Assembly (NCBI GenBank): GCA_963575745.1
Contig: CAUYUJ010000750.1
Location: forward strand, 1-64,000
Source of the DNA: Prorocentrum cordatum
Lineage: Eukaryota > Sar > Dinophyceae > Prorocentrales > Prorocentraceae
Direction of reading: 5' to 3'
DNA length: 64,000 nucleotides
Under the pieces are notes generated by a model. That model was given only the letters and a program-made list of their open reading frames with translations. It made no database searches and was not told the origin of the DNA. Position numbers and translations under genes: made by a program. Every line of letters starts with the position of its first letter. Positions within the stretch are counted from its first letter, which is position 1. Positions 1 to 43,312 of the stretch are shown here, in pieces.

Positions 1-330
1 AGCCTATTGTGAGCCGTCTTGGAGGCCCCCGGGCTATCATGGGGTCCTCTTCGGCCGTCTTGGGGGCCCCTTGGGGCGCTTGGGCCATCTTGGACCGTCT
101 TGAGCTGACGGGAGCTCGAGACGGCGAGCATGTAAACGTCTATCGGGCCTTGGTGGGTGAGATGTTGTTGCCCTCTTGGTTGCACCTCGGGCCGTCTTGA
201 GCCAATATTGGGCCGCCTTGAGACCAGCCTCGGCCGCCTTAGAGCGTCTTTGGCCTTTTGGGCGGCAGTGGTTGCCTGCCTGGGCCGTCTTGGAAGCTCG
301 GAGCGGTTTTGTACGAGGGATCGTGGCTTT
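1..330 (+). repeat. CTTGG-phased minisatellite array, copy 1
   Basis: Degenerate tandem repeat in which CTTGG recurs every 10 to 12 nt, separated by GGCCGTC, GAGGCCT or GGGCCAT. The same motif forms arrays at about 14.0-15.0, 15.2-15.5, 27.4-27.7, 28.5-28.6, 33.2-33.5, 35.4-35.6, 43.8-44.3, 55.25-55.5, 55.85-56.5 and 56.65-57.05 kb, and on the opposite strand at 31.6-31.8 kb. The open frames through it are only the repeat read as Leu-Gly-Arg or Pro-Lys-Arg. A G homopolymer of about 13 nt follows at 331-343. Confidence 0.85.
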
Positions 331-343
331 GGGGGGGGGGGGG

Positions 344-968
344 GTCGGCGAATTTGCCTGAACTCGACAGCCTTTGGCATTCAAATACGCCTCAACGTGC
401 AAGGGAGCACGGTCGCGGATTTCTTTGCATACTTTCCCTACGCCTTTGAATAACATATATTATGGTGCATCGCGTAAAATTTGTCCAACCGTTCAAACTC
501 TTCCAGCTAAGCAGACTGCGTTCTTCAACATGTGCAAGTTAGCATATACCTTGATTATCTTAGTTCTGACAAGCTGTCTAGCTTACGTATAGCGTAGCAC
601 ACGATTGGCTCCACTACCGATGTGTCGTCTTTAAGTGCATCAAGATTAGACGTCCTCTTCACATTATGATTCTAACGCTGTAGCCCATCATCCTTCGTAT
701 CTAGTGGCTTCCGGCCCGTGCAGCCATCGTGCCTAAGTTGTGGGGCAAAGGCCTCATGGTTGTTTTTTTGGGGTTTCTTGGTGGTGGGGCTAGCTTAGAC
801 TCTACATGTATATGTACATTTTGGAGCATGCACCATATTTGTACTTGAGGATTCGATCTTAACATGACTACGGGGCACTCCAACTCGCGCACGCATTCCT
901 GGTGGTATACACATATTTCCCCAACCCTCCTGTGTTGGGCACTCGCTTTGAATCGAGCACTGCCGACC
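344..968. other. AT-richer interval with no recognised gene
   Basis: This stretch is less GC-rich than its surroundings, especially 440-680. The longest plus-strand frame (374-592) uses a non-ATG start and ends in a hydrophobic run, but has no recognisable domain. I see no RNA gene or repeat family here. Confidence 0.5.
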
Positions 969-1012
969 CCTCCTCCTCCTCCTCCTCCTTCTCCTCCTCC
1001 TCCTCCTCCTCC
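969..1012 (+). repeat. (TCC)n microsatellite at the 5' junction of the LINE
   Basis: About 14 TCC units with one TTC interruption. The last TCC overlaps the first bases of the spliced leader, so the junction shows microhomology. A matching (TCC)n tract lies just beyond the 3' end of the LINE. Confidence 0.9.
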
Positions 1013-1031
1013 GTAGCCATTTTGGCTCAAG
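1010..1031 (+). other. Dinoflagellate spliced-leader sequence (relict SL at a retrotransposon 5' end)
   Basis: The 22 nt TCCGTAGCC ATTTTGGCTC AAG match the known dinoflagellate SL (DCCGUAGCCAUUUUGGCUCAAG, D = T here) at every position. It is followed by GCTCATG, not by a GT splice donor. It is therefore not an SL RNA gene but the product of reverse transcription of a trans-spliced transcript. It begins the LINE transcript unit, 196 nt before the likely ORF1 ATG. Confidence 0.93.
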
Positions 1032-1226
1032 GCTCATGCTTTTGCGGGCTGAGCCCGTATTGGCATTCTCGGATACCGCTAGTCCGCGGCAGTGCCAGAG
1101 CGCTTGCGCTCGACAGCTTTTCGCCTTCACCGAGGGGTTGGGCTCCCTCATCAGTTTTGCCGCCACGGCCAGGCAGCCCTCAGGGCCGTGGCTCTCGCCG
1201 CTTGTCCCTGCGACGCCGACGCCGCC

Positions 1227-2281
1227 ATGGCCCCGACGCGCAAGGAGAATGCTTCGCCATGGTATTGCAAGTGGTGCAGGCATGACGTCACGAATCAGCC
1301 GTGGTTCAACGCCTCCACCCTGGTGTACTGCAAGAAGTGCGGCCTGCACAAGAGCAACTGTTTCAAGGAGAACAAAGCAGCGTCGCAGCCCAGCGTCTCG
1401 GCCAAGCAGCAGTCGCTCGCGGCCAAAGTCAAGGAGCTCGAGGCGCAGCTCGCCAAGCTCCGCGAGCATCCCCCTGGGCAAGGGCCAGCGGCTACGGGTA
1501 CAGGTGCGAGCCCACCTTGGGCTGCCGCGCCTGGGGATGTTGATACTGTCAAGAGGAGCCGTATCAAGATGCTGGATCAGTTGCTTCGGGTCACTACTGA
1601 CCCTGCTGACGCTGGTATTGTGGCCAAATGGCGCGAGGAGCGAGCTAGGTTGGATGCGGAGCTCTTTCAGGATAGGCCCATTGAGCATCAGGCAAGGCAT
1701 TGGCGTCAAGGCTGTCCTCCGCTCGTGCGCGACAGGCTACCATCCAGGCCACTCGCGACGAGCAGCAGAGGAAGATCGACGAGCTCACCCTCGGCCTGGC
1801 CGACACTGACTCCAAGTTGCAGGAGGCGGCTGCCGAGGTCCTCCGCCTGGAGCAGCAGACTCGAGCCGCTATGTCGCGAGTCCAGCCGCCCGAGGGCACC
1901 CAGCCACCGACGTTGGCGGACTTGCTGCCCACCTTCGCGGTCAGCGTGGAGCAGCTGGGCAAGGTTGCATCGGGCCTCGGTCTCGGCGCTGACATGGTCA
2001 AGGAGCTGCAAGCTATGGCCAACACGGTCAGCAAGCTGCAGAATATGCCGCAAGCCAAGCCGCCTGAACCTACACCTGCCCATGATGATGAGGATGGTGA
2101 TGAGTCTTGCGCTGAGCCACCTGACATCGAGATGTCAGAGCAGGAGTACCGTGAGACGCTGGGTGCAGCAGGGGTCCCAGTCGAGGAGAGCGACACCCCT
2201 GACATCGTGCGTGAGAAGTTCAAGCGCCTTCAGCAGAGCTACTTGGACACTGTGGCCAAGAAGGCCAAGACTTCGGCGTGA
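1227..2281 (+). pseudogene. LINE ORF1 protein, one frameshift near 1695
   Basis: The ATG at 1227 sits in a strong context (GCCGCCATGG) and keeps the N-terminal zinc finger, so it is preferred over the upstream GTG at 1092. Residues about 10-43 hold a RanBP2-like ribbon: WYCKWC, a 17-residue loop region, then YCKKCG and a further Cys. A Lys/Glu/Leu-rich coiled coil follows (about residues 60-80). Near 1690-1700 the frame changes as if one base were lost. The second frame (TTG codon at 1700 onward) continues with a long heptad-like segment (KIDELTLGL... EVLRLEQQ), an acidic stretch and a basic C-terminus KKAKTSA, stopping at 2281. In LINEs this protein binds element RNA. About 350 residues in total. 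The two frames share acidic/coiled composition and cannot be separate genes. Confidence 0.8.
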
Positions 2282-2297
2282 AGGTGCTCGGCTTGAT

Positions 2298-5200
2298 ATG
2301 CTGTTGATTTGGCTCTTTGTCACCATGGTCAGCTCTACATCAGCGCAACATGTCGAGAGTCCGCCTCAGTCTTCTTCGATGGCGGCTAGCATTCTGGGCA
2401 GGGGGGGGAGGGATTCAGCCCCTCGTAGTCACACCCCCCTGCCCACATCGGCGTCTAGTTCCATGACCTCGGCTGGCACTACGGCGCCTACATTACTTCC
2501 CCCACTGGCCCGCTCCTCGGGGCGGGGGACAGCTCCGACCCTGACGGCGGCCCCACTTACTTCAGTTGAGCCTGCAGCTCCGTCTGGGGCGACCACGGCA
2601 TCACAGAGGGCTACTCCGTCTACGCCTACGCGGTTGGCCCCTGGCAGCACGCACTGCTCACCGACCTCACCTTCGGGGATTGGCGGCAGAGGGTACCGAC
2701 CGTCTTCGGACGGCACGCACCGCTCACCGCCCTTGCCCTCGGAGAATTCAGGCGGCAGAGAGTACCGACTGCCAGGGGCCCCACCGGGCCAGAGTGGCCC
2801 AGTGTGCACTACCTCGGATGACGATCATGACTTCTTCGAGGACGTTGAGCCTGACATGGAAGCAGATCTGTGTGAAGGCGCATTTCATGAAGCGCCATCT
2901 TCGTCCCCACCTTCTTCCCGATTACGCTTCGAGAAATCAGGTCAAGAACGCGCTGCACCCACCTCGCCTTTGCCGCCAGGGAGCACGGAGGCGAAGGTGC
3001 AGCCAATGCATGCAGTATCTCAGCCGCAGCTCAAGGGCCTCATCACAACGGTGAATGCTACGAGCTACGGTCCTCTCTTTGACTTTTTGGCTACCTATCG
3101 AGGAACTATCTTGCTGGCACAAGAATTGAGGATTACCGACTCCAGGCTTGGCGAGTTTCAGGCCAGGGCCTTGGATGTTGGATGGCACGGGCTATGGGCC
3201 CCGTCGCCCTCCACGGGTGACTCAGCCACGTCCAACTTCGGAGGCGTCGCTGTACTTGTGCCGACATACATCATGGTCACAGCCCCACCTGATGATGGGC
3301 ACATTATCTACCCAGGACGAGCAGTCTGTGCACAGATTAACTGGGGAGTGGCAGGCGGCATCATAGTCGCCAGTGTGTATCTTGTCACGTCCATTGGCAT
3401 ATCGGGCGAGAACATTGAGGTGCTGTGGGCCCTGGCACAGAGAGTGGCAGCATGGAACTCACGGGGCCTCGACTGGATCCTAGGTGGCGACTGGAACTCC
3501 GACATCGATGCGCTCAATGTTCGCAACTGGGTCGAGACCATGGCAGCCGTCCACTACGTGCCCGACCAGCACACCTGCATCACCGACGAGGGCAAGAGCA
3601 CCATAGACTATTTCGTCGTCTGTGCCAATCTAGCGTCTCGCATCAAGGGCAAGCCAGAGGTCCAGTATGACTCCACGGTCGTGCCGCCGCCGCATTTCCC
3701 TGTAGAGCTGCAGCTCATGGGAGAGGATCGCCCCACGTGGTGCCGTGTCCCTGTGGAGCCGCGCCCCTTCGCGGTGGTGCCGCCAGTTGGCTGTGCTAGA
3801 TATCCCTACCCGTGGCACAGGCTCCAGACAGAGTTCCAACGGGTCAGTTGTGCCGACGATCTGAGCCTGCTCTGGGACTCCGTGCTGCGAGGGGTGGACT
3901 ACGAGCTGGCGGGGCGTTACGACTGTGTGGGTGCTAAGGCCATGCAGTACATTGGACGCGAGGGGCCGCCGCAGTTCAAGTGGCAGCACTTGTCATGGCA
4001 GCCGCCACGCAGGCGTACCTACAAGGAGCCGACCGTGCTGGCCTGAAGCGATGGGCCCAGCACCTTGTGGCGGAGAAGAAGCGGCTGGCGAGGTACATCG
4101 AGCGCCTCAAGCTCTGCGCTGCCGTGTGTGACATCACGCCGCTGCAGTACACTAAGGTCGCAGTGGCTTTCAACGAGGTGGCTGCCTTTTACAGACGCGC
4201 GGCTCGGTCAGAGCATGTGCTGTGTGTTTTGGATGCTGCCTTCGCAGGCTTCTTTTGGCGAGGGCTGACTGGCCTGGTCGAGTCTGACTTTGAGGACGTA
4301 GCCAAGGCCATCATTGCCAGAGCTGATCATCATTTGGGATTGGCACAAAGAGCGTCAGAGAGGGCCTGGAGGCAGTGGGCCAAAGAAGCCTTCCTGGGAG
4401 GAGCATCTCGGGCACATTCGTCCTCCAAAGTTCGGGCTCGACAGGAGGTGCTTGCCTACTCCCACGACGCTCAGCCATACCAGATGGCTGACCGCACGCT
4501 CGACAAGTGGAAGGACGTTTGGACCTACCACGGTGCATGTTCTCTGTCGCTGCCTGCCGACCACGCTCAGTGGCCTTTGCTTCCGCCTTTGTCTGCATCG
4601 CAGGTGCGTGGGGCCATCAGGAGTTTTCCGTTGAAGACGGCCCCGGGCCAGACGAGGATCGCGCCACGCACGCTCGATGTGTTGTCCGACCAGGCCTTGC
4701 AGAGCCTGGCCGATATGTTCATGCTGTTTGAGAGTTGGCTGGCCTGGCCCACGGACAGGCTCTACAGCGAGCTTGTTCGCCTGCCCAAGCCTGACGGGGA
4801 CACTAGGTTGATCGTCCTCAGCAATACCTTCGTCAGGTTGTGGGGAAAGCTACGTCGGCCGCTTTCGGCGGAGTGGCAAGAGGCGCATAAGTGCGAGCAT
4901 ATGTGGGGGTCAAGGGCTGGGCAGACTTCGACCGATTCAGCCTTCGACCACAACCTGAGCCAGGAGATAGGAGAACTTTTAGGTGAGCACACATGCACCA
5001 TTCTCTTGGACATGACCAAGTGCTTCGATATGGTCAGTCACAGTGCACTTCTCCGAGAAGCTAGAGAGCTCGGGTACCCGCTGAGGCTCCTGTGGTTGCT
5101 CCTGGGCTCCTACCGTCAGCCGAGAAGGATCAAGTGCTTTGGATCTGTATCTAGGCCCTTGGTGGCCCATCAGGGTATTCTTGCGGGCTGCACGCACGCC

Positions 5201-7829
5201 ACGTACCTTCTATACCTCCTCGCGTACCGAGCGGTCCAGCGCACGGCCAGTATTGCACCCTCTATCACGCCACGCACGCTCATGGACGATGTGGGTCTGC
5301 AGTACGTGTCGCCCGTATTGAGGGAAGTGTCCAACCTGGCCCGAGCGGCCAAGGCGTTCACGTCGGATGCAGGAGATCTTGGGATGGTCCTGAAGCCGCC
5401 GAAGTCTGGATGTATCCCTGGGAACCAAAAAGGTTTGGGGACAGCTCAAGAGGCACCTGGGAACCTTGAAGATCCCGTACAGGGCCCACATGAGGAATCT
5501 GGGACACGAGCTCACAGGACCTCGAGTTCTTCGGCATATGGAGAAGCGTAGGTTGGTGCAGTTTCGAGAGCGCAAGCATCGTTTTCGCATGTTGAAGTCC
5601 GCCGTGGGGCGGAGTGCTACCAGCTTGTGGCGCACGGGCGCCCTTCCATCAGTGGCGCATGGCGGTGCAGTTGCTGGGGTTAGCGACAGCGCTCTTCGTG
5701 AGTTGCGACATTGTGTTGCAGTCCTAAATGGTGCTCCAGGTAAGACGATGGTTGGGGTAACAGCGTATCTCATATCTCATCGGGATGAATGTTATGACCC
5801 CATATATAACGCCACCACGGACATTGTGCTCAAATACGCCTCCTGGATCTGGGACGGGCGAGTGCAACCTAGCAGACTTCGGGAGGCTTGGGTGCGTCTG
5901 GGTGCTAAGTTTGAGAGTTCACCTTCCTGGGCCAAGGCGCGTGGGCCCCTTGGGGCCACCTGGCTTACTTTGAGGCGCATATCCTGGACTATGTCGTCAG
6001 AGCACATCCTGGTCGACGATTTGGGAAACAGTTTTGATTTATATCGTGTATGTCCAGCAGACCTACAAGTGTTCCTGCATCAAGGCATTCAGCGCTGGCA
6101 GCACCATAGGTTGCAGCAGCATTTTTACACCGAGCAGGCGGACGTGTGGCATCGTGCGCTGCGCCACGCGCTCGCCAAGATAAAGTGTCACAGGCGCCTC
6201 GGAGCGCTGCAGGCTTTGTGGGCTGACAACCTTCCCATCCCACCGCGTCGGGACATGAAGCACGGGAGGCCCATTAGGCCATGTCAGGCCTGCGGCAAGG
6301 CTAGCGACTCCGGTTGGGGTCATATCTTTTACGACTGCCCGCCGCTCCTCGAAGGGGACCCCGACCAGGAGTATTATGAGTTTCCAGAACAGCTTCAGGA
6401 GGTTCGTGGCATGCTTCAGGCGTCTGGTCAGATGCTGGGGTGCGCCGACTGGGACCAGAGATACTTGATCTATGGGGTTCCAGAGCCTGTTGCAGTACCG
6501 CACTACACCACGGTCTCCAATGAGGTTTTTGAATGGGGAGATGTCTTGGGCTCTTGGGGGCCTACGTCATATACTGACGGCTCGGGGTTCTCGGCCAGCA
6601 TCCCTGAAGTACGTAGGTGTGGGTGGTCGGTCTGCCAGCTGGACCCCGTCACGTGGCTCCCCGCCAGAGCTGTATATGGGCCCTTGCCCTACTATGTGCA
6701 GACAGTAGGACGTGCTGAGCGCTATGCCATCAAGATGGGACTTCAGAGGCATCCTGGGCATGAGGTTTTCATTTCTGATCTGAAATCGCTCGTGGAGGAG
6801 GGTGCGTCCTGGGACCAGAGGCTCGAGTTTGGCAAAGCGAAGCACGCCCGAGTCTGGAGAGATATTTTTTCGGCTGCCAGAGCACGCGATCCACGTCTGC
6901 CACCAGTGCGGTTTCAGTGGACTCCAGCTCACAGGAAGCTGGAGGACGTCATCGGGTCGGCCACGCCAGACGAGCTGGAGGCCTACGTCGGCAATGCCTG
7001 GGCCGACTTCTTCGCGAAGTGTGGCAGTGCTGCGCACATGGTGTCAAAGACACTGGCTGACAGTTTGGCAGCTGGGCTGAAGCAGCACAAGCAGGTCCTG
7101 CACTATGTGTCGTGGGCGGCCTTCCAGGTTGTGCAGTTTCGGAAGTGGGGAGCTGACCCTGTCGTGGTGCACGACCCAGAGCTCGCCCAGGTGCCCAAGC
7201 GTGTGGTTTTCGAGAGGCCCCAGGACCACGAGTTGCTTTTCTGCCAGAGGACGTCTGAGTATCGGTGTCGACGGTGCAATCGTGTCGCTCGGAGTGCGAG
7301 TACCCTCCAGACTCTTCGTTCGGGAGCTGATCGGGTATGTGCTCCCTCGCCTCTCGTCCAGAGCCTTGCCGAGGACTTCTTTCTGCGGAGTTCTGAGGCG
7401 TGGCTGAGTGTTTCAGATTCTAGGGTAGCGGCGGCCATCGAGGCGGCCGATAGGTTGTTGGGGTCCACGCCTCGGCCTTTAGAGGCCTCCTCGGGGTTCC
7501 CCGCGGTCCCTCCCCAGCCGCTGGAGCAGGTGTCTGCTGCCAGTGGCACGGCCGACGTTCCCCAACCTGTGCTTGCCGAATTCGCTGAATTGGGGCATGA
7601 CGTTTTCTGTGTTAATTCCGTGTATTGCTGCCGCAAGTGCGGGGGCAATTTCAACGGGTCCGAGTCCTTCAGGTCCGCCCGCAAGCTGCGGGCGCAGTGC
7701 CAAGGTTTCTCGGAGAATCCAAAGACTAGGGCGAACCAGCTCACGGCGATCGACCGTATTGCCCGTGGCCTGGAGCCCCGCCAGCGTGGGGCAGGAGCGG
7801 CGCGTTCTGGCCCGAACCCTGCCCCCTAG
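2298..7829 (+). pseudogene. LINE ORF2: APE endonuclease, reverse transcriptase, RNase H
   Basis: The ATG at 2298 lies 16 nt after the ORF1 stop. A Ser/Pro/Thr-rich linker leads into an APE-like endonuclease (about 3030-3710) with LAQELRI, ILGGDWNSD, STIDYFV and a terminal PPPHFP His. A one-base loss near 3977-3985 moves to the frame of the reverse transcriptase: LPKPDGDTRLI (about 4780), motif A LLDMTKCFD (about 5008), motif B QGILAGCTHA (about 5169), motif C LMDD (about 5279-5290). A one-base gain in the A5 run at 5427-5431 moves to the last frame. That frame has a CCHC finger CQACGKASDSGWGHIFYDC (about 6282), RNase H with SYTDGSG, RAERYAI, ISDLKS and NAWADFF supplying all four acidic residues, and two C-terminal Cys-rich fingers (about 7265 and 7627). 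Stop TAG at 7829. About 1840 residues. Motif C has Leu where most LINEs have Phe or Tyr. Confidence 0.92.
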
Positions 7830-7990
7830 TGTTTTCTTTTGGACTTGGGCCTGGGAGGTTTTCTTGGGTGTGGTTTTCCTGAGGCGCCCCACCCTCTCCC
7901 AGGCTTCCGCCTCCCGCCACCCCTGTGGCTCTCAGGTCTCACACGCGGTTGGTGTTCGTCACTCGGACGCCTCTCCTGCGGCTCGCTCGC
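7830..7990 (+). other. LINE 3' untranslated tail
   Basis: Sequence between the ORF2 stop and the second (TCC)n tract. It is C- and T-rich, with no poly(A) and no polyadenylation-like signal. Its end is set only by the start of (TCC)n, so the true boundary could be some bases away. Confidence 0.6.
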
Positions 7991-8080
7991 TCCTCCTCCT
8001 CCTCCTCCTCCTCTTCCTCCTCCTCCTCCTTCCTCCTTCCATTCTCCCCCTCCTGGTGTTGCTCCTCCTCCTCCCTGCCT
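7991..8080 (+). repeat. (TCC)n tract at the 3' junction of the LINE
   Basis: Interrupted TCC/TTCC repeat, the same motif and strand as the tract at 969-1012. The two tracts are the best candidate for the target-site sequence on each side of the LINE. Confidence 0.85.
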
Positions 8081-8089
8081 CGTGATCCC

Positions 8090-9040
8090 GCCACCCCCTG
8101 GGGGCTGCGATTTGCCAAACCGTCGCCACTCTCGTGGGCTCCTGGGGGGGCCAGCGGAGGTGCGTCCTGCGCAGATCATCACGAGACGTCGCCGTCCCGT
8201 GAGGGGCCGCGATTTGTGAAATTGTCGCAAACTTCCGTGGGCGTCTGGGAGGGCCGGCGGAGGCACGCCCCACGCAGTTCACCACGAGACCTCGCCGTCC
8301 CCTGGGGCGTCTGCGATTTGCGATTCTGTCGCCACTTTCGATGGGCTTCTTGGAGGGCCAGCGGAGTTGCGTCACACGCAGATCACCACGAGACCTCGCC
8401 GTCCCCTGGGTGTTTGCGATTTGCGACACTGTCGCCACTTCCGTGGGCTCCTGGGGGGCCCAGCGCAATGACGTCCTTTTCACGGGGCTCCTGGACTCCT
8501 GGAGGGCCAGCGGAGGTACGTCCCACGCAGATCACCACGACATCTCGTCGTCCTCTGGGGCGGCTGCGATTTGCGAAACTGTCGCCACTTTCGATGGGCT
8601 TCTTGGAGGGCCAGCGGAGTTGCGTCACACGCAGATCACCACGAGACCTCGCCGTCCCCTGGGTGATTGCGATTCGCGAAACCGTCGCCACTTCCGTGGG
8701 CTCCTGGGGGGCCCAGCGCAATGACGTCCTTTTCACGGGGCTCCTGGACTCCTGGAGGGCCAGCGGAGGTACGTCCCACGCAGATCACCACGACATCTCG
8801 TCGTCCTCTGGGGCGGCTGCGATTTGCGAAACTGTCGCCACTTCCGTGGGCGCCTGGGAGGGCCAGCGGAGGTACGTCCCGCGCAGATCACCACGAGACC
8901 TCGCCGTCCCCTGGGGGCCGGCGGTCTGCGAAACTGTCGCCACTTCCGTGGGCTCCAGGGAGGCCCAGCGGAGGTACGTCCTACGCAGGCAGGTGTCCGT
9001 GAGACCTCGCCGTCCCCTGGGGGGCTGCGATTTGCGAAAA
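8090..9040 (+). repeat. ~103-bp satellite, about eight units, with a 253-bp higher-order repeat
   Basis: Units are anchored by CTGCGATTTGCGAAAC followed by GTCGCCACTT and CACGAGACCTCGCCGTCCCC. The anchor recurs at about 8107, 8209, 8312, 8415, 8567, 8668, 8819 and 9027. Some units carry an extra ~49 bp (CTTTTCACGGGGCTCCTGG). The block from 8341 is repeated almost exactly from 8594, a 253-bp higher-order period. A further unit-like piece appears at about 10577-10680, beyond the palindrome's left arm, so that arm interrupts the array. Confidence 0.85.
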
Positions 9041-9455: not shown

Positions 9456-9900
9456 CCAAACCACGTTCAAGGTACAAACCACAATTTTCGGCGCCTGCGG
9501 CGGGCTTTTTTTGCATTCCTTCCAACTGGAGAGCCCGCGACACATCCCGTGACCAACTCGCGACCAACCCGCGACCCAAACCACGTTCAGGGTACAAACC
9601 ACATTTTTCGGCGCCTGCGGCGGGCATATTTCGCATTCGTTTCAGGTGGAGAGCCCGCGGCCCACCCGCGACCACGTTCAGGGTACAAACCATATTTTCG
9701 GCGCCTGCGGCGGGCATCCTTTGCATTCGTTCCCTGTGGAGAACCCGCGGCCCACCCGCGACCCAAACCTCGTTCCGTGTACGAACCATTTTTTTGGCGC
9801 TTGCGGCGGGCTGCTTTTGCATTCCTTCCAGGTGGAGGTGGAGAGCCCGCGACCCACCCGCGACCTAAACCACGTTCACTGAACAAACCAACGCCGCACA
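9456..9900 (+). repeat. ~100-bp tandem repeat, about five units
   Basis: Each unit holds CCACGTTCAGGGTACAAACC, then TTTTCGGCGCCTGCGGCGGG, then TTGCATTCGTTCC, AGGTGGAGAGCCCGCG. Unit length varies from about 90 to 120 bp through loss of parts of the CCCGCGACCCA spacer. The right arm of the palindrome keeps about four of these units in inverted order. Confidence 0.85.
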
Positions 9901-10084
9901 AGCGCGGCGGCGGATTCTTGCATGCCGTCTGAGCCCGCAAGGACCTCTTCACGCCCCGCACATCCACGCCAGCCCGTCCAGCAACTTTGCCCTGGCGAGT
10001 TGCCTTGATCAGAGAAGGCGGGGAGCATAAAGTGGAAAAAAGGATTGCGTTGCAGTTATCTTGGGAAAGGAGGGGGAGGCAGGA

Positions 10085-10470
10085 TGAGTAAACAGGGGAC
10101 GAGGAGAACGTGGAAGAAGAGAGGATGTAAGGAGAACGTGGAGAAAGAAAAGGAGGAGGAGCAGGAGGACGAGGGGGAGGAGGGGGAGGAGGGGGAGGAG
10201 GAGGACGAGGAGGGGGAGGATGGGGAGGATGATGATGATGGACGACAATGGGAGGACGATGATGGAGGCCGATGAGGGGGAGGACGACAATGGGAGGACC
10301 ATGATGAAAAGACGAGGGGGGGAGAGGGAGGACGAGGAAGAAGAGGAGGAGGAGGAGGAGACGAGGTGGAGGAGGAGGATGACGATGACGATGAGGACGA
10401 GGAAGAGGAGGAGGAGAAGGAGGAGGAAGAGGAGGAGAAGGAGGAGGAGGAGGAGGTGGAGGAGAGCGCC
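10085..10470 (+). repeat. GGA/GAG purine tract (GAT and GAC interruptions)
   Basis: Long strand-asymmetric purine run within the left arm, matched by a TCC run at about 11255-11640 in the right arm. Its frames read as poly-Glu, poly-Arg or poly-Gly and carry no gene. Confidence 0.9.
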
Positions 10471-10576
10471 ATCGACAAGGAAGGTGGGGGCCACGAGGTC
10501 CGCCGGCTCGACGACGCCCGCGTCGCCCGCGCCCGCCCCCTCACTCTTATCCGCAATTGCGGGGTGCTACGTATCG

Positions 10577-11149
10577 TAACTTCCGTGGGCTCCTGGGGGG
10601 TCCAGCGGAGCGGATGGGTGTTCCACGGGGACCACCATGAGACCTCGCTGCGATGTTTGATCGCAGATCGCAGCGGGATGGGGTGCCACGGAGCGCATGG
10701 CGCTGCCATGTGGCCATGCCGCATCGACTTTTCAGCTGCCTCGTGTCCATAGTGCACTCGGGCACTTGCAGCGTTTGGCGCAGGGCGCTGTTCTGCAATG
10801 GGAACCTAGCGCGATGTGCCGTTACTCCCACGAAGCATGTCTCCAGTTCCCCCATCACCAGTCCGTTTCGAGGCCAACTCGTGGTCGCCTTCTTGCCAAC
10901 GAGCTCTGACTCTTAAGAGTGATGCCGCGAATGTGAAACATGTGGCTCTGGCCCAACGTCCTTTGGCGAAGCATTCAAGAGCACGGCGGATCCATCAGTG
11001 CTTGCTTTTGTATTGAACGGTCCGTTCCTGGGTAATGCTTATACATGTCCAGCCCATTTCTGCACATGTCCATGCGCCTTTCTTTTGCCCCTCCCCATCA
11101 TGTTTTGCTGTGTGCGCATATGTGCCTGCTTTTGCCCCCCGCACCACTT
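10577..11149. other. Spacer of the 3.5-kb palindrome
   Basis: 573 bp between the arms. The first ~100 bp resemble the ~103-bp satellite (ACTTCCGTGGGCTCCTGG and ACCACCATGAGACCTCGC). The rest is not repeated in the window and has no domain-bearing frame. Confidence 0.7.
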
Positions 11150-12523
11150 CGATACGCAGCACCCCGCAATTGCGGATAAGAGTGAGGGGGCGGGCGCGGG
11201 CGACGCGGGCGTCGTCGAGCCGGCGGACCTCGTGGCCCCCACCTTCCTTGTCGATGGCGCTCTCCTCCACCTCCTCCTCCTCCTCCTTCTCCTCCTCTTC
11301 CTCCTCCTTCTCCTCCTCCTCTTCCTCGTCCTCATCGTCATCGTCATCCTCCTCCTCCACCTCGTCGTCCTCCTCCTCCTCTTCTTCCTCGTCCTCCCTC
11401 TCCCCCCCCTCGTCTTTTCATCATGGTCCTCCCATCGTCGTCCTTCCCCTCATCGGCCTCCATCATCGTCCTCCCATTGTCGTCCATCATCATCATCCTC
11501 CCCATCCTCCCCCTCCTCGTCCTCCTCCTCCCCCTCCTCCCCCTCCTCCCCCTCGTCCTCCTGCTCCTCCTCCTTTTCTTTCTCCACGTTCTCCTTACAT
11601 CCTCTCTTCTTCCACGTTCTCCTCGTCCCCTGTTTACTCATCCTGCCTCCCCCTCCTTTCCCAAGATAACTGCAACGCAATCCTTTTTTCCACTTTATGC
11701 TCCCCGCCTTCTCTGATCAAGGCAACTCGCCAGGGCAAAGTTGCTGGACGGGCTGGCGTGGATGTGCGGGGCGTGAAGAGGTCCTTGCGGGCTCAGACGG
11801 CATGCAAGAATCCGCCGCCGCGCTTGTGCGGCATTGGTTTGTTCAGTGAACGTGGTTTAGGTCGCGGGTGGGTCGCGGGCTCTCCGCCTCCACCTGGAAG
11901 GAATGCAAAAGCAGCCAGCCGCAAGCGCCAAAAAAAATGGTTCGTACACGGAACGAGGTTTGGGTCGCGGGTGGGCCGCGGGTTCTCCACAGGGAACGAA
12001 TGCAAAGGATGCCCGCAGCAGGCGCCGAAAATATGGTTTGTACCCTGAACGTGGTCGCGGGTGGGCCGCGGGCTCTCCACCTGAAACGAATGCGAAATAT
12101 GCCCGCCGCAGGCGCCGAAAAATGTGGTTTGTACCCTGAACGTGGTTTGGGTCGCGGGTTGGTCGCGAGTTGGTCACGCGGGTCGGTGGCGACGGCGCGG
12201 GGGTCGCGGGGGTCGCGGGGTGGGTCGCGGGTGGGGTCGCGGGGTGGGCCGCGGGGGGGTCGCGGGGGGGTCGCGGGGTGGGTCGCGGGGTGGGTCGCGG
12301 GGTGGGTCGCGGGGTGGGTCGCGGGTGGGTCGCGGGTGGGTCGCGGGTGGGTCGCGGGGTGGGTCGCGGGGTGGGTCGCGGGTGGGTCGCGGGGCGGGTT
12401 GCGGGTGGGACGACGACAACAAACAACAACAACAACAAACAACAACAAGAATCCGCACCGCGGAATTCCACATCAGCCACGCACCCAGGGACAGTGAATG
12501 ACCGTTCGGCCCCCTCACTCTGA
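11150..12523 (-). repeat. Right arm of 3.5-kb palindrome; TIR-bounded element, copy 2
   Basis: Reverse complement of 9041-10576, from CGATACGCAGC at 11150 to CTCACTCTGA at about 12523. Base differences are few; length differs (about 1374 versus 1536 bp) because tandem tracts contracted. The inner junctions differ from each other, so the arms are not simply a read copied onto itself at a single point, although an assembly artefact is not excluded. Confidence 0.88.
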
Positions 12524-39255: not shown

Positions 39256-40956
39256 CGTCGGAGTAATTCCCCAACCATCCTGTGGGTCCTCGTTTTGAAG
39301 AGACGGTCCCCGCGTCCTCCTCCCCTCTCCTCTCCTCCTCTCCTCTCCTCCTTTCCTCCTCTCCTCTTCGCCCACCCAGTACACCGTTCCCCGCACGCCC
39401 AATTCGGCACACCCCTCACACGCTTCGTGGCCCCATAGGGAGCCCCACCGAAGGCCCCAGCGCTGCCGCCCGCATGCGTCACCCACGCCCAATTCGGCAC
39501 ACCCCTCGCACGTTTTGTGGCCCCATAGGGAGCCCCACTGAAGGCCCCAATGCTGCCGCCCGCATGCGTCCCGCACACCCAATTCGGCACACCCGTCACA
39601 CGTTTCGTGGCCCCATAGGGAGCCCCACCGAAGGCCCCAATGCTGCCGCCCACATGCGTCACCCACACCCAATTCGGCACACCCCTCACACGTTTCGTGG
39701 CCCCATAGGGAGCCCCACCGAAGGCCCCAATGCTGCCGCCCGCATGAGTCCCGCAAGCCCAATTCAGCACACCCCTCACACGTTTCGTGGCCCCATAGGG
39801 AGCCCCACCGAAGGCCCCAGTGCTGCCGCCCGCATGCGCCCCGCACACCCAATTCGGCACACCCCTCACACGTTTCGTGGCCCCATAGGGAGCCCCGCCG
39901 AAGGCCCCAACGCTGCCGCCCGCATGCGTCCCGCACACCCAATTCGGCACACCCCTCACACGTTTCGTGGCCCCATAGGGAACCCCACCCCCAATGCTGC
40001 CGCCCGCATGCGTCCCGCACACCCAATTCGGCACACCCCTCACACGTTTCGTGGCCCCATAGGGAGCACCACAGAAGGCCCCAGTGCTGCCGCCCGCATG
40101 CGTCGCCAACACACAATTCGGCACACCCCTCACACGTTTCGTGGCCCCATAGGGAGCCCCACCGAAGGCCCCAGCGGGCCGCCCGCATGCGTCCCGCACA
40201 CCCAATTCGGCACACCCCTCACACGTTTCGTGGCCCCATAGGGAGCTCCACCGACGGCCCCAGTGGCGGCGCTCACATGCGCATGCGTCCCCTGCACCCA
40301 TTTCGGCACATCCCTGACAGGTTTCGTGGCCCCATCATCCACCGGAGGCCCCAGTGGCGGCGCTCACATGCGTCACCCACACCCACCCAATTCGGCACAC
40401 CCCTCACACGTTTCGTGGCCCCATAGGGAGCTCCACCGAAGGCCCAGCGGCCGCGCTCACATGCGTCCCGCCACCCATCCCGGCACGCCCCTCACAACAA
40501 CAGGTTTCGTGGCCCCATAGGGAGCTCCACCGAAGGCCCCAGTGGCACCGCCCGCATGCGTCACCACCCGCACCCAATTCGGCACACCCCTCACACGTTT
40601 CGTGGCCCCATAGAGAGCTGCACCGAAGGCCCCAGTGGCGGCGCTCACATGCGTCCCCGCCACACATCCCAGTACACCCCTCACGCGCTTCGTGGCCCCA
40701 TAGGGAGCTCCACCGAAGGCCCCAGTAGCGGCGCTTACATGCGTCTCCGCCACCCATCCCGGCCCCCCCCCCCCGCAGCAGCATCATGTTTCGGGGACCC
40801 ATAGGGAGCTCCACTGGAGGCCCCAGTGGCGGCCCGCACATGCGTTTCCGCCACCCATGTCGGCACGCCCCGCGCGTGTTTCATGTCCCCATAGGGAGCT
40901 TCGCCGAATGCCCCAGTGGCACCCATCTCGGCACACCCCTCACACGCTCCGTAGTC
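39256..40956 (+). repeat. Left arm of the second palindrome: 90-bp satellite
   Basis: AATTCGGCACACCCCTCACA recurs at 39401, 39491, 39581 and so on, 90 bp apart, with CGTTTCGTGGCCCCATAGGG and GCCGCCCGCATGCGTC in each unit. About 17 units. It is preceded by CCAACCATCCTGTGGGTCCT and a TCC-rich stretch, and those flanks are also mirrored at the far end of the right arm. Because 90 is a multiple of three, frames stay open across the array and give 30-residue repeats; these are not genes. Confidence 0.92.
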
Positions 40957-41069
40957 GTATGGGGAGTTCATTGAAGATGAAACCCGCAGCCGCGGTACTA
41001 ACAACTGCATGTGGTTGGGTTTTTCGCCAGGCTAATTTGAGTACCGTAGGGTACACTATTATAGGGTAG
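40957..41069. other. Spacer of the second palindrome
   Basis: 113 bp of non-repeated, AT-richer sequence between GTAGTC (40951) and GACTAC (41070). Confidence 0.85.
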
Positions 41070-43312
41070 GACTACGGAGCGTGTGAGGGGTGTGCCGAGA
41101 TGGGTGCCACTGGGGCATTCGGCGAAGCTCCCTATGGGGACATGAAACACGCGCGGGGCGTGCCGACATGGGTGGCGGAAACGCATGTGCGGGCCGCCAC
41201 TGGGGCCTCCAGTGGAGCTCCCTATGGGTCCCCGAAACATGATGCTGCTGCGGGGGGGGGGGGGGGGGCGGGATGGGTGGCGGAGACGCATGTAAGCGCC
41301 GCTACTGGGGCCTTCGGTGGAGCTCCCTATGGGGCCACGAAGCGCGTGAGGGGTGTACTGGGATGTGTGGCGGGGGCGCATGTGAGCGCCGCCACTGGGG
41401 CCTTCGGTGCAGCTCTCTATGGGGCCACGAAACGTGTGAGGGGTGTGCCGAATTGGGTGCGGGTGGTGACGCATGCGGGCGGTGCCACTGGGGCCTTCGG
41501 TGGAGCTCCCTATGGGGCCACGAAACCTGTTGTTGTGAGGGGCGTGCCGGGATGGGTGGCGGGGACGCATGTGAGCGCGGCCGCTGGGGCCTTCGGTGGA
41601 GCTCCCTATGGGGCCACGAAACGTGTGAGGGGTGTGCCGAATTGGGTGGGTGTGGGTGACGCATGTGAGCGCCGCCACTGGGGCCTCCGGTGGATGATGG
41701 GGCCACGAAACCTGTCAGGGATGTGCCGAAATTTGTATGCGGGACGCATGCGCATGTGAGCGCCGCCACTGGGGCCTTCGGTGGAGCTCCCTATGGGGCC
41801 ACGAAACGTGTGAGGGGTGTGCCGAATTGGGTGTGCGGGACGCATGCGGGCGGCAGCACTGGGGCCTTCGGTGGAGCTCCCTATGGGGCAACGAAACGTG
41901 TGAGGGGTGTGCCGCATTGGGTGTGGGTGACGCATGCGGGCGGCAGCACACTGGGCCTTCGGTGCGGCTCCTATGGGGCCCACAAACGTGTGAGGGGTGT
42001 GCCGAAATTGGGCGGGGGGGCGGGACGCATGCCGGGCGGCACCACTGGGGCCTTCGCGGGGCTCCCTATGGGTGCCACGAAACGTGTGAGGGGTGTGCCG
42101 AATTGGTGTGTCAGGCCGCATGCGGGCCGGCAGCACTGGGGGGGCCTTCGGAGGGGCTCCTATGGGGCCACGAACGTGTGAGGGGAGGTGCGAATTGGCG
42201 TGCGGGAACCATGCGGGCGGCAGCAGTGTGTCCTTCGGTGGGGGCTCCCTTGGGGCCACGAAACGTGTGAGGGGTGTGCCGATTGGGTGTGCGGGACGCA
42301 TGCGGGCGGCAGCACTGGGGCCTTCGGTGGGGCTCCCTATGGGGCCACGAAACGTGTGAGGGGTGTGCCGAATTGGGTGTGCGGGACGCATGCGGGCGGC
42401 AGCACTGGGGCCTTCGGTGGGGCTCCCTATGGGGCCACGAAAGCGTGTGAAGGGGTGTGCCGAATGGGTGTGCGGGACGCATGCGGGCGGCAGCACTGGG
42501 GCCTTCGGTGGAGCTCCCTATGGGGCCACGAACGTGTGAGGGGTGTGCCGAATTGGGTGTGCGGGACGCATGCGGGCACACACTGGGGCCTTCGGTGGGG
42601 CTCCCTATGGGGCCACGAAACGTGTGAGGGGGGGGACGGGACGCATGCGGGCAGCAGCAGCACTGGGGCCTTCCGGGGCGGCGCATTCATGGGGCCACGA
42701 ACGTGTGAGGGTCGGCTGCGAATATGTGAAACGTGTGAGGGGTGTGCCGAATTGGGTGTGCGGGAAGCATGCGGCGGCAGCACTGGGGCCTTCGGTGGAG
42801 CTCCCTATGGGGCCACGAAACGTGTGAGGGGTGTGCCGAATTGGGTGTGCGGGACGCATGCGGACGGCAGCACTGGGGCCTTCGGTGGAGCTCCCTGTGG
42901 GGCCACGAAACGTGTGAGGGGTGTGCCGAAATGGGTGTGCGGGACGCATGCGGACGGCAGCCATGGGGCCTTCGGTGGAGCTCCCTATGGGGCCACGAAA
43001 CGTGTGAGGGGTGTGCCGAAATGGGTGTGCGGGACGCATGCGGACGGCAGCACTGGGGCCTTCGGTGGAGCTCCCTATGGGGCCACGAAACGTGTGAGGG
43101 GTGTGCCGAATTGGGTGTGCGGGACGCATGCGGGCGGCAGCACTGGGGCCTTCGGTGGAGCTCCCTGTGGGGCCACGAAACGTGTGAGGGGTGTGCCGAA
43201 ATGGGTGTGGCAGGAGGAGGGGGGGGAGGAGGAGAGGAGGAGACGCGGGCCACCGTCTCTTCAAAACGAGGACCCAACACCACAGGATGGTTGGGAAAAA
43301 TACTTCCCATTG
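41070..43312 (-). repeat. Right arm of the second palindrome: 90-bp satellite, inverted
   Basis: Reverse-complement units (GTGTGAGGGGTGTGCCGAAT and CCTATGGGGCCACGAAACG). The first ~690 bp mirror 40270-40956 closely, including irregular units with ATGCGCATG and CCTGTTGTTGTGAGGGG. From about 41930 to 42740 small indels are frequent, and the unit count exceeds that of the left arm. The outer end (CCGTCTCTTCAAAACGAGGA, 43254-43312) mirrors 39262-39310. Confidence 0.9.

Follow-up and report, generated by a model that had tools for sequence, protein, structure and literature searches.

The spliced leader at the head of a LINE

In dinoflagellates, the spliced leader (SL) is joined to transcripts by trans-splicing, and its presence as DNA at the exact 5' end of a LINE raises the question of whether one processed copy acquired it by accident or whether trans-splicing is a regular step in the life of the element. 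We addressed this question for a LINE in a stretch of 64,000 nucleotides from Prorocentrum cordatum (contig CAUYUJ010000750.1), referred to here as the window. The 22-mer TCCGTAGCCATTTTGGCTCAAG near the start of the window is a complete dinoflagellate SL with D = T, and it is unique there, with no other match to the SL 21-mer at three or fewer mismatches across the 64 kb, where chance would give a mean of 0.02. It runs directly into GCTCATGC, with no GT donor at the junction. An earlier note, made from the letters of the window, had described this arrangement as an exact SL without a donor followed by a LINE leader and ORF1, and the description was confirmed in each part (Table 1). ORF2 matches both the APE endonuclease (PF03372, E = 1.5e-5) and the reverse transcriptase (RT; PF00078, E = 1e-7) above the Pfam gathering cut-offs, and by these domains the element is an APE-type LINE, that is, a non-LTR retrotransposon.

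Several further features were read from the window copy. A Cys-rich, zinc-ribbon-like region at the N-terminus of ORF1 and the RNase-H-like motifs of ORF2 were recognized by eye; for RNase H, Pfam and PDB sequence searches of the window copy gave no match, and a weak RNase_H match (E = 0.0021, below cut-off) was found at a different SL site (L123). Overlapping ORFs indicate that the copy is disrupted by frameshifts near 1700, 4000 and 5500, and it extends to about 7990, where its 3' end, GCTCGCTCGC, lacks poly(A) and is followed by (TCC)n again. An Rfam scan of window positions 1–9000 returned no match to an HDV-like ribozyme up to E = 5, the sole ribozyme match being a hammerhead on the minus strand (E = 0.56, below threshold). 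We also considered the window SL as part of an SL RNA gene and rejected this, as GCTC and the LINE leader follow the SL, unlike in the likely SL RNA genes described below (L166–L168). Elsewhere in the window, positions 9548–12178 contain extended inverted repeats that are almost perfect (534 nt at 99%, 248 nt at 100% and 217 nt at 100%) with a 573-nt centre, and arrays of a 90-nt unit at 39300–43310 occur in both orientations, forming inverted repeats of up to 438 nt.

Table 1 Parts of the window element, and target-site duplications around five other copies
Feature	Position or sequence	Strand	Remark
Interrupted (TCC)n tract	971..1009	+	Target; half of probable (TCC)n target-site duplication
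Complete 22-nt SL TCCGTAGCCATTTTGGCTCAAG, first nucleotides of the integrated element	1010..1031	+	Boundary from unique-sequence duplications of five other copies
LINE 5' leader (5'UTR)	1032..1226	+	First 24 nt at 58 exact genome sites, 57 elements
Conserved 5'UTR hairpin GGA-U-[ACCGC]-UAGUCC-[GCGGC]	1071..1090	+	Outer A-C pair unformed in window copy
ORF1	1227..2281	+	Frameshifted near 1700 in window copy; from ORF calls
ORF2 region: APE endonuclease, reverse transcriptase, RNase-H-like motifs (by eye)	2283..7829	+	Start approximate
3'UTR ending (GCTC)n, without poly(A)	7830..7990	+	Last few nt ambiguous with respect to target
(TCC)n at 3' side	7991..8038	+	Second half of target/duplication
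Duplication L036/L180	CTCCCTGCTTTTAAGT		No overlap with SL
Duplication L031/L181	CTCCTCCATCATCCTA		No overlap with SL
Duplication L030/L179	CCTCCTAGATGGGG		Two extra Gs before SL
Duplication L071/L182	CCTCCTCTGATTATTCGT		One T shared with SL
Duplication L026/L044	CTACCTTGCCTGGGTT		One T shared with SL

Copies of the LINE begin with the spliced leader

We searched the P. cordatum genome (4,128,499,153 bases, or 4.13 Gb, in 21,875 contigs); genome-wide counts are of exact patterns, and samples were taken in contig order rather than at random. The first 24 nt of the LINE leader occurred at 58 exact sites (33 + 25), compared with 0 for the reversed control. These sites represent 57 elements, because L021 has two leader starts and was counted by the outer one, and upstream sequence was read for all 57, after L048 and L049 had been dropped as the same sites as L011 and L015. 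In every one of the 57 elements, the leader is immediately preceded by the SL or a part of it. The 22-nt SL is exact at the junction in 46 and has a single mismatch in six (L022, L060, L065, L067, L071 and L075); of the rest, L038 has an exact SL with a 15-nt relict behind it, L057 has lost two T from its SL, L025 has an altered SL with six mismatches, L012 retains only TCAAG of the SL behind TCC, and the SL of L037 is cut by the contig end, its remaining 17 nt fitting.

The 60 nt before the SL are TCC-rich in 55 of the 57 copies and GGA-rich in none, compared with a TCC-rich background of 2.8% of window positions on both strands under the same rule. Flanks are shared in two pairs (L009 with the window copy, and L019 with L034), so that at most 55 of the 57 insertions are independent; the flanks of 21 copies are only about 250 nt long. 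The copies compared, these two pairs apart, showed no common sequence upstream of the SL. The earlier note had reasoned that trans-splicing could be a normal step for this element if other copies also began with the SL, and that a longer conserved 5'UTR upstream, devoid of SL, would speak against it; alignment of the genomic copies at their 5' ends supports the former and gave no sign of the latter.

L047, L051 and L053 have an exact leader start but very strongly diverged bodies, so the 57 elements do not all belong to one close family, and a 5' exchange between families is possible in these three. In L021 (contig C16980), the SL is followed by leader nt 1–51, CTCAAG and the leader again, a partial 5' duplication for which template jumping, or splicing that joined two copies of the element, could be responsible. 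L038 and L023, which lie at different sites, differ at 5 of 1,850 nt; among 34 distinct copies examined, the ORF1 frame is open over 351 aa in 24 and over 345–349 aa in another three. Together these findings indicate that the family was active recently. LINEs of Symbiodiniaceae are described as old remnants in two studies (PMC8045281, PMC10235124). Among 8,000 scored candidates, relatives of the RT gave seven matches, five from P. cordatum and two from ENA sets, the latter two at 60% identity and covering 35% and 21% of the query.

The spliced leader lies inside the integrated DNA

Both ends were examined in 31 copies, including that of the window, and a tail was recognizable in 29 (none in L190 and L045). 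All 29 tails, those of the window copy and of 28 of the 30 others examined, end in (GCTC)n without poly(A). The length of this tail varies, with about nine extra GCTC units at the 3' end of the L038 copy (L138). In five of the 29 two-ended copies, duplications of 14–18 bp lie in non-repeat flanks (Table 1), and these place the start of the element at T1 of the SL, to within 1 nt where a T is shared (L071 and L026). The five elements so delimited are about 7 kb long and end in (GCTC)n, the last few nucleotides being ambiguous. These target-site duplications show that the SL lies inside the integrated DNA, and they bear out, from five other copies, the earlier proposal that the window copy reached full length with the SL as its 5' end. 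Judged as an SL-tagged retrocopy, the element has its SL inside a duplication-bounded insertion and lacks the poly(A) 3' end. In the other 24 two-ended copies, matches between the flanks fall in pyrimidine repeats, where their length is uninformative (23 copies), or there is no match (L025). The two extra Gs before the SL of L030 fit copying of the cap, although this is one copy with a G run, where slippage is possible.

Four of the five unique duplications begin with CTCC or CCTCC, which suggests that the first nick is probably made at GGAG on the other strand. LINEs that target microsatellites include Waldo, Dong and others, which prefer to insert into a simple repeat; compared with these, the present family has CTCC/(TCC)n as its target, in one orientation. 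The TCC/TCCG overlap at the window junction had been taken in the earlier note to suggest microhomology at 5' joining. A shared T in two of the five unique cases (L071 and L026) agrees with this, but there is no overlap in L036 and L031 and there are extra Gs in L030, and copies in TCC arrays are uninformative because overlap is unavoidable there. Microhomology is thus not supported as a general feature of the 5' join.

Spliced-leader sites across the genome

The SL 21-mer occurs in 14,218 exact copies genome-wide (reversed pattern, 0), of which 1,993 lie directly behind TCCTCC. For two Symbiodinium genomes, 244 and 496 SL sequences have been reported with a different method (PMC8045281). We sampled the first 68 of 100 listed sites among the 14,218 and classified the sequence before the SL, finding 32 TCC-rich, 14 GGA-rich and 22 other sites, against a background under the same rule of 2.8% for each of the two rich classes in the window and 0.6% for each in distal parts of 20 loci. 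Three of the 22 other sites (L166, L167 and L168) are likely SL RNA genes. These lie on contig C39, where three SLs spaced 5.2 and 3.0 kb apart are each followed by near-identical sequence, SL-ATACAAGCATCCCTACAAATTAC, with AT rather than GT after the SL. Among viral contigs, the sole one with an exact SL was L199 (IMGVR_UViG_3300045993_001077), in which positions 2746–2913 of the minus strand hold two exact SLs 147 nt apart in AT-rich sequence.

To describe what follows the SL, 20 ORFs were compared with Pfam, drawn from 19 of 20 SL sites with 3 kb downstream (two from L134 and none from L127). An APE match at E ≤ 0.01 was found at seven of the 20 sites, four of them above the Pfam cut-off (L116, L117, L118 and L135), and one further site (L123) has the weak RNase H match mentioned above. 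LINE heads are therefore established at a fifth of this 20-site sample, or at two fifths when weak matches are counted; 12 of the 20 proteins were silent in Pfam, in part because a 3-kb stretch may stop short of ORF2. Two SL sites, L004 and L008, had no visible LINE signs.

Flank and leader are not strictly coupled. Leaders like GCTAAACG (L122, L144 and L146) lie behind GGA, and the leader TTCCCAACGTCGC was found behind GGA (L003), behind TCC (L153) and in the other class (L148). A strict choice of target by family was considered; it holds for sites with the 5'UTR hairpin motif described below, all 14 of which among the 68 are in the TCC class, and fails for the TTCCCAACGTCGC leader, so family does not strictly determine the target. 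GGA-class sites, which include L117, L120, L122, L123, L144 and L146, have the orientation opposite to that of the window family. The idea that (TCC)n serves as a general polypyrimidine tract for trans-splicing is weakened by the 14 of 68 SL sites that lie behind (GGA)n.

A leader motif and a covarying hairpin

A 20-nt motif of the leader, GGATACCGCTAGTCCGCGGC, has 2,225 exact genome copies. We inspected the first 42 of 100 listed sites among these, which were not chosen for the presence of an SL (two had already been fetched as SL sites). An SL matching at least 16 of 22 positions was present at 40 of the 42, at least 19 of 22 at 39, and exact at 24, and, with relicts set aside, it lies 25–28 nt upstream of the motif at 31 sites and 38–40 nt upstream at nine. 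At the remaining two sites, L079 and L094, the SL is decayed or broken. Outside the motif, the leaders differ strongly (30 aligned). Most sites were read over 550 bp only, and LINE proteins were found behind the motif or a close variant at L001 (tblastn to ORF1 and ORF2 of the window), L116 (APE, E = 2.2e-8) and, weakly, L124 (E = 0.0043). Extrapolating from the few sites at which proteins were checked, the motif would mark a LINE superfamily.

The motif region can form a hairpin of the form GGA-N-N5-loop-N5, with the loop TAGTCC or a near variant, which we found at 14 of the 68 SL sites in 11 distinct sequences; these were picked by GGA and loop, not by their arms, and L126 and L175, with shorter loops, were excluded. 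Changes on both sides occur at all five pairs among the 11 sequences, at loci other than the window. Overall, 85.5% of cells are paired, compared with 63.8% in shuffles (0 of 500 reach this value) and 31–68% in slid controls. The outermost pair is formed in only three of the 11, and the number of further pair types is not clearly above that of shuffles (53 of 500 reach it); the six distinct stems have all of their 24 inner pairs formed (permutation p = 0.001). Across the genome, CCTC/GAGG, changed on both sides, was found 64 times, and CCTC/GCGG, changed on one side, six times. Single-sequence folding of five 5'UTR stretches was unexceptional (z from -1.6 to +0.4), so the support for the hairpin is that of covariation. 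For a pseudoknot between GGA and the UCC of the loop, there is hardly any variation and no compensatory change was found, which is evidence neither way. A conserved hairpin behind the SL is common to many SL-headed elements, and our best guess for its role is recognition of the element's own RNA, or an aid to trans-splicing or translation.

Tandem leaders point to repeated trans-splicing

The sequence CCATTTTGGCTCAAG corresponds to an SL truncated after its TAG, and 1,202 exact SLs, or 8.5% of exact SL sites genome-wide, have it directly behind them. When decay was tolerated, a second SL or relict lay directly behind the first at 15 of 65 sampled SL sites (three SL-RNA-like sites having been dropped), compared with 3 of 455 control windows. 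Full second SLs at L125, L128, L161 and L164 are decayed, and three SL layers can be seen by eye at L123 and L151. The perfection of the outer SL proves nothing, as it was selected as exact in this sample; the inner layers, however, show repeated rounds. Tandem relict SLs, which the earlier note had suggested looking for, are also present at 3 of the 42 motif sites, and the motif or a variant together with a relict was seen at L087, L106, L108, L116 and L178. Within the window family, the only one is that of L038 (1 of 57), whose single mutation may postdate insertion. The pair L065 and L038 was considered as mother and daughter, the mutated SL of the former matching the relict of the latter, and was rejected since the bodies misfit: the closest copy to L038 is L023, and L065 falls in a different subfamily.

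These layers bear on the alternative of a single past capture of the SL, which would since have been a fixed piece of DNA in the 5'UTR or promoter, with transcription starting from T1 and no new trans-splicing. Such a history would account for the SL or part of it standing at the same place in all 57 copies with a relict in only one, a promoter starting exactly at T1 would look identical in single-SL copies, and the SL, with its TTTTG box, has been proposed in print as a promoter motif for retrogenes (PMC6050394). However, an SL followed by a truncated relict, as in the 1,202 exact cases and at motif sites too, calls for a transcript with its start upstream of the old SL, to which a new one was then added. 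A fixed SL also sits poorly with the decay of inner SLs (L125, L161 and L164) and with motif-bearing leaders that differ strongly yet share the SL. We therefore regard a single capture as unlikely.

A second alternative is that the window holds a one-off SL-tagged processed copy, like any SL-tagged retrogene, of a LINE otherwise independent of the SL. SL-tagged retrogenes are common in dinoflagellates (PMC6050394, PMC12014239), and sites such as L004 and L008 show that an SL can occur in the same sample apart from visible LINE signs. With the SL in 57 of 57 copies and at 40 of 42 motif sites, this explanation is refuted for the window family and is very improbable overall. Tracts of (TCC)n are hard to assemble. 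An artefact of assembly or library, by cDNA contamination or by scaffolding that joined transcripts to (TCC)n gaps, could draw on the use of transcripts for scaffolding in the published P. cordatum assembly (PMC10666404), but is scarcely credible given unique duplications on both sides of elements of about 7 kb in five copies, 14,218 exact SL sites, inner SLs of differing decay and (GCTC)n tails without poly(A).

A proposed life cycle

We consider it very likely, from the sequence evidence, that the template for retrotransposition of the window's APE-type LINE is its own SL-trans-spliced and capped mRNA, and a trans-spliced mRNA probably also serves as template for a superfamily. That trans-splicing of the LINE mRNA preceded its reverse transcription had been proposed in the earlier note, and this agrees with the SL in 57 of 57 copies, its position inside integrated DNA in five and the tandem relicts. 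The cycle would begin with a read-through or externally started transcript that crosses the flanking tract and the old SL; tandem copies, in which the relict starts after the TAG of the old SL, require such a transcript, and single-SL copies presumably arise from one as well. The host would then add a new SL by trans-splicing, in most cycles probably with the terminal CAAG of the old SL as acceptor, so that one SL is regained at the same place; since only L038 among the 57 has a relict, this is the simplest reading of the usual acceptor. In a minority (8.5% by the exact pattern, 15 of 65 with decay tolerated and 1 of 57 in the window family), the acceptor would be the TAG within the old SL or an AG upstream, leaving the relicts or whole old SLs that are seen behind the new one.

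The duplications and tails suggest how the RNA may return to the genome. At CTCC/GGAG sites, most of them within (TCC)n microsatellites, the ORF2 protein would nick the strand rich in GGA, and reverse transcription would be primed at the (GCUC)n end of the RNA, with no poly(A). By continuing to the cap, it would give the new copy, flanked by a duplication of 14–18 bp, the complete 22-nt SL as its start, as the boundary in five copies shows. The balance tips slightly towards a broader reading, in which SL trans-splicing is obligatory in the life cycle of an entire superfamily of dinoflagellate LINEs, with CAAG as self-acceptor, and in which the same machinery has made many SL-tagged retrogenes.

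Relation to known systems

Dinoflagellate SL-tagged retrogenes come close, being reverse-transcribed mRNAs whose 5' end carries an SL that is either complete or a relict starting after the AG at SL nt 7 (work of Slamovits & Keeling 2008 and Song et al. 2017, as cited in PMC6050394, PMC12014239 and PMC3229502). There, the host gene is a passive substrate and the type of retroelement responsible is called unknown, with a 2018 review favouring LTR elements (PMC6050394). In the window family, by contrast, an autonomous retrotransposon is itself headed by the SL, in 57 copies and nearly always without a relict.

LINEs must keep a complete 5' end, which some achieve with internal promoters or self-cleaving ribozymes, both found in L1Tc (PMC8190864). 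The trypanosomatid ingi/L1Tc elements with Pr77, which offer the nearest contrast, are likewise LINEs in a host with SL trans-splicing and have a conserved 5' end common to many elements. According to the same source, however, L1Tc has an internal promoter, an HDV-like ribozyme and an unspliced RNA, whereas the P. cordatum LINE has the SL as its 5' end and no HDV-like match. In Caenorhabditis elegans, the transcript of the retrotransposon Cer1 can also receive SL1, but Cer1 is an LTR element in which SL1 is found on a 2.4 kb spliced mRNA and not on the 8 kb message, and the consulted part of the source holds no description of a genomic SL (PMC3315495). In the literature searched, which comprised partial texts and few subscription papers, we found no description of LINE copies in a genome that have an SL as their start, and we report as new the anatomy of CTCC/(TCC)n target, missing poly(A) and covarying 5'UTR hairpin.

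If the proposed cycle is true, the element rebuilds its 5' end in each round and would need neither an internal promoter that fixes the start nor a 5' ribozyme. Flanks of (TCC)n or (GGA)n are found at SL sites whether or not they show LINE signs, which points to LINEs as a source of retrogenes in P. cordatum, and, if the broader reading holds, the machinery that nicks at CTCC/(TCC)n also made many of the SL-tagged retrogenes in this genome. The question of which enzyme makes dinoflagellate SL-tagged retrogenes is thereby opened to testing. These LINEs seem to use the trans-splicing of their host, restoring cap and leader with each cycle.
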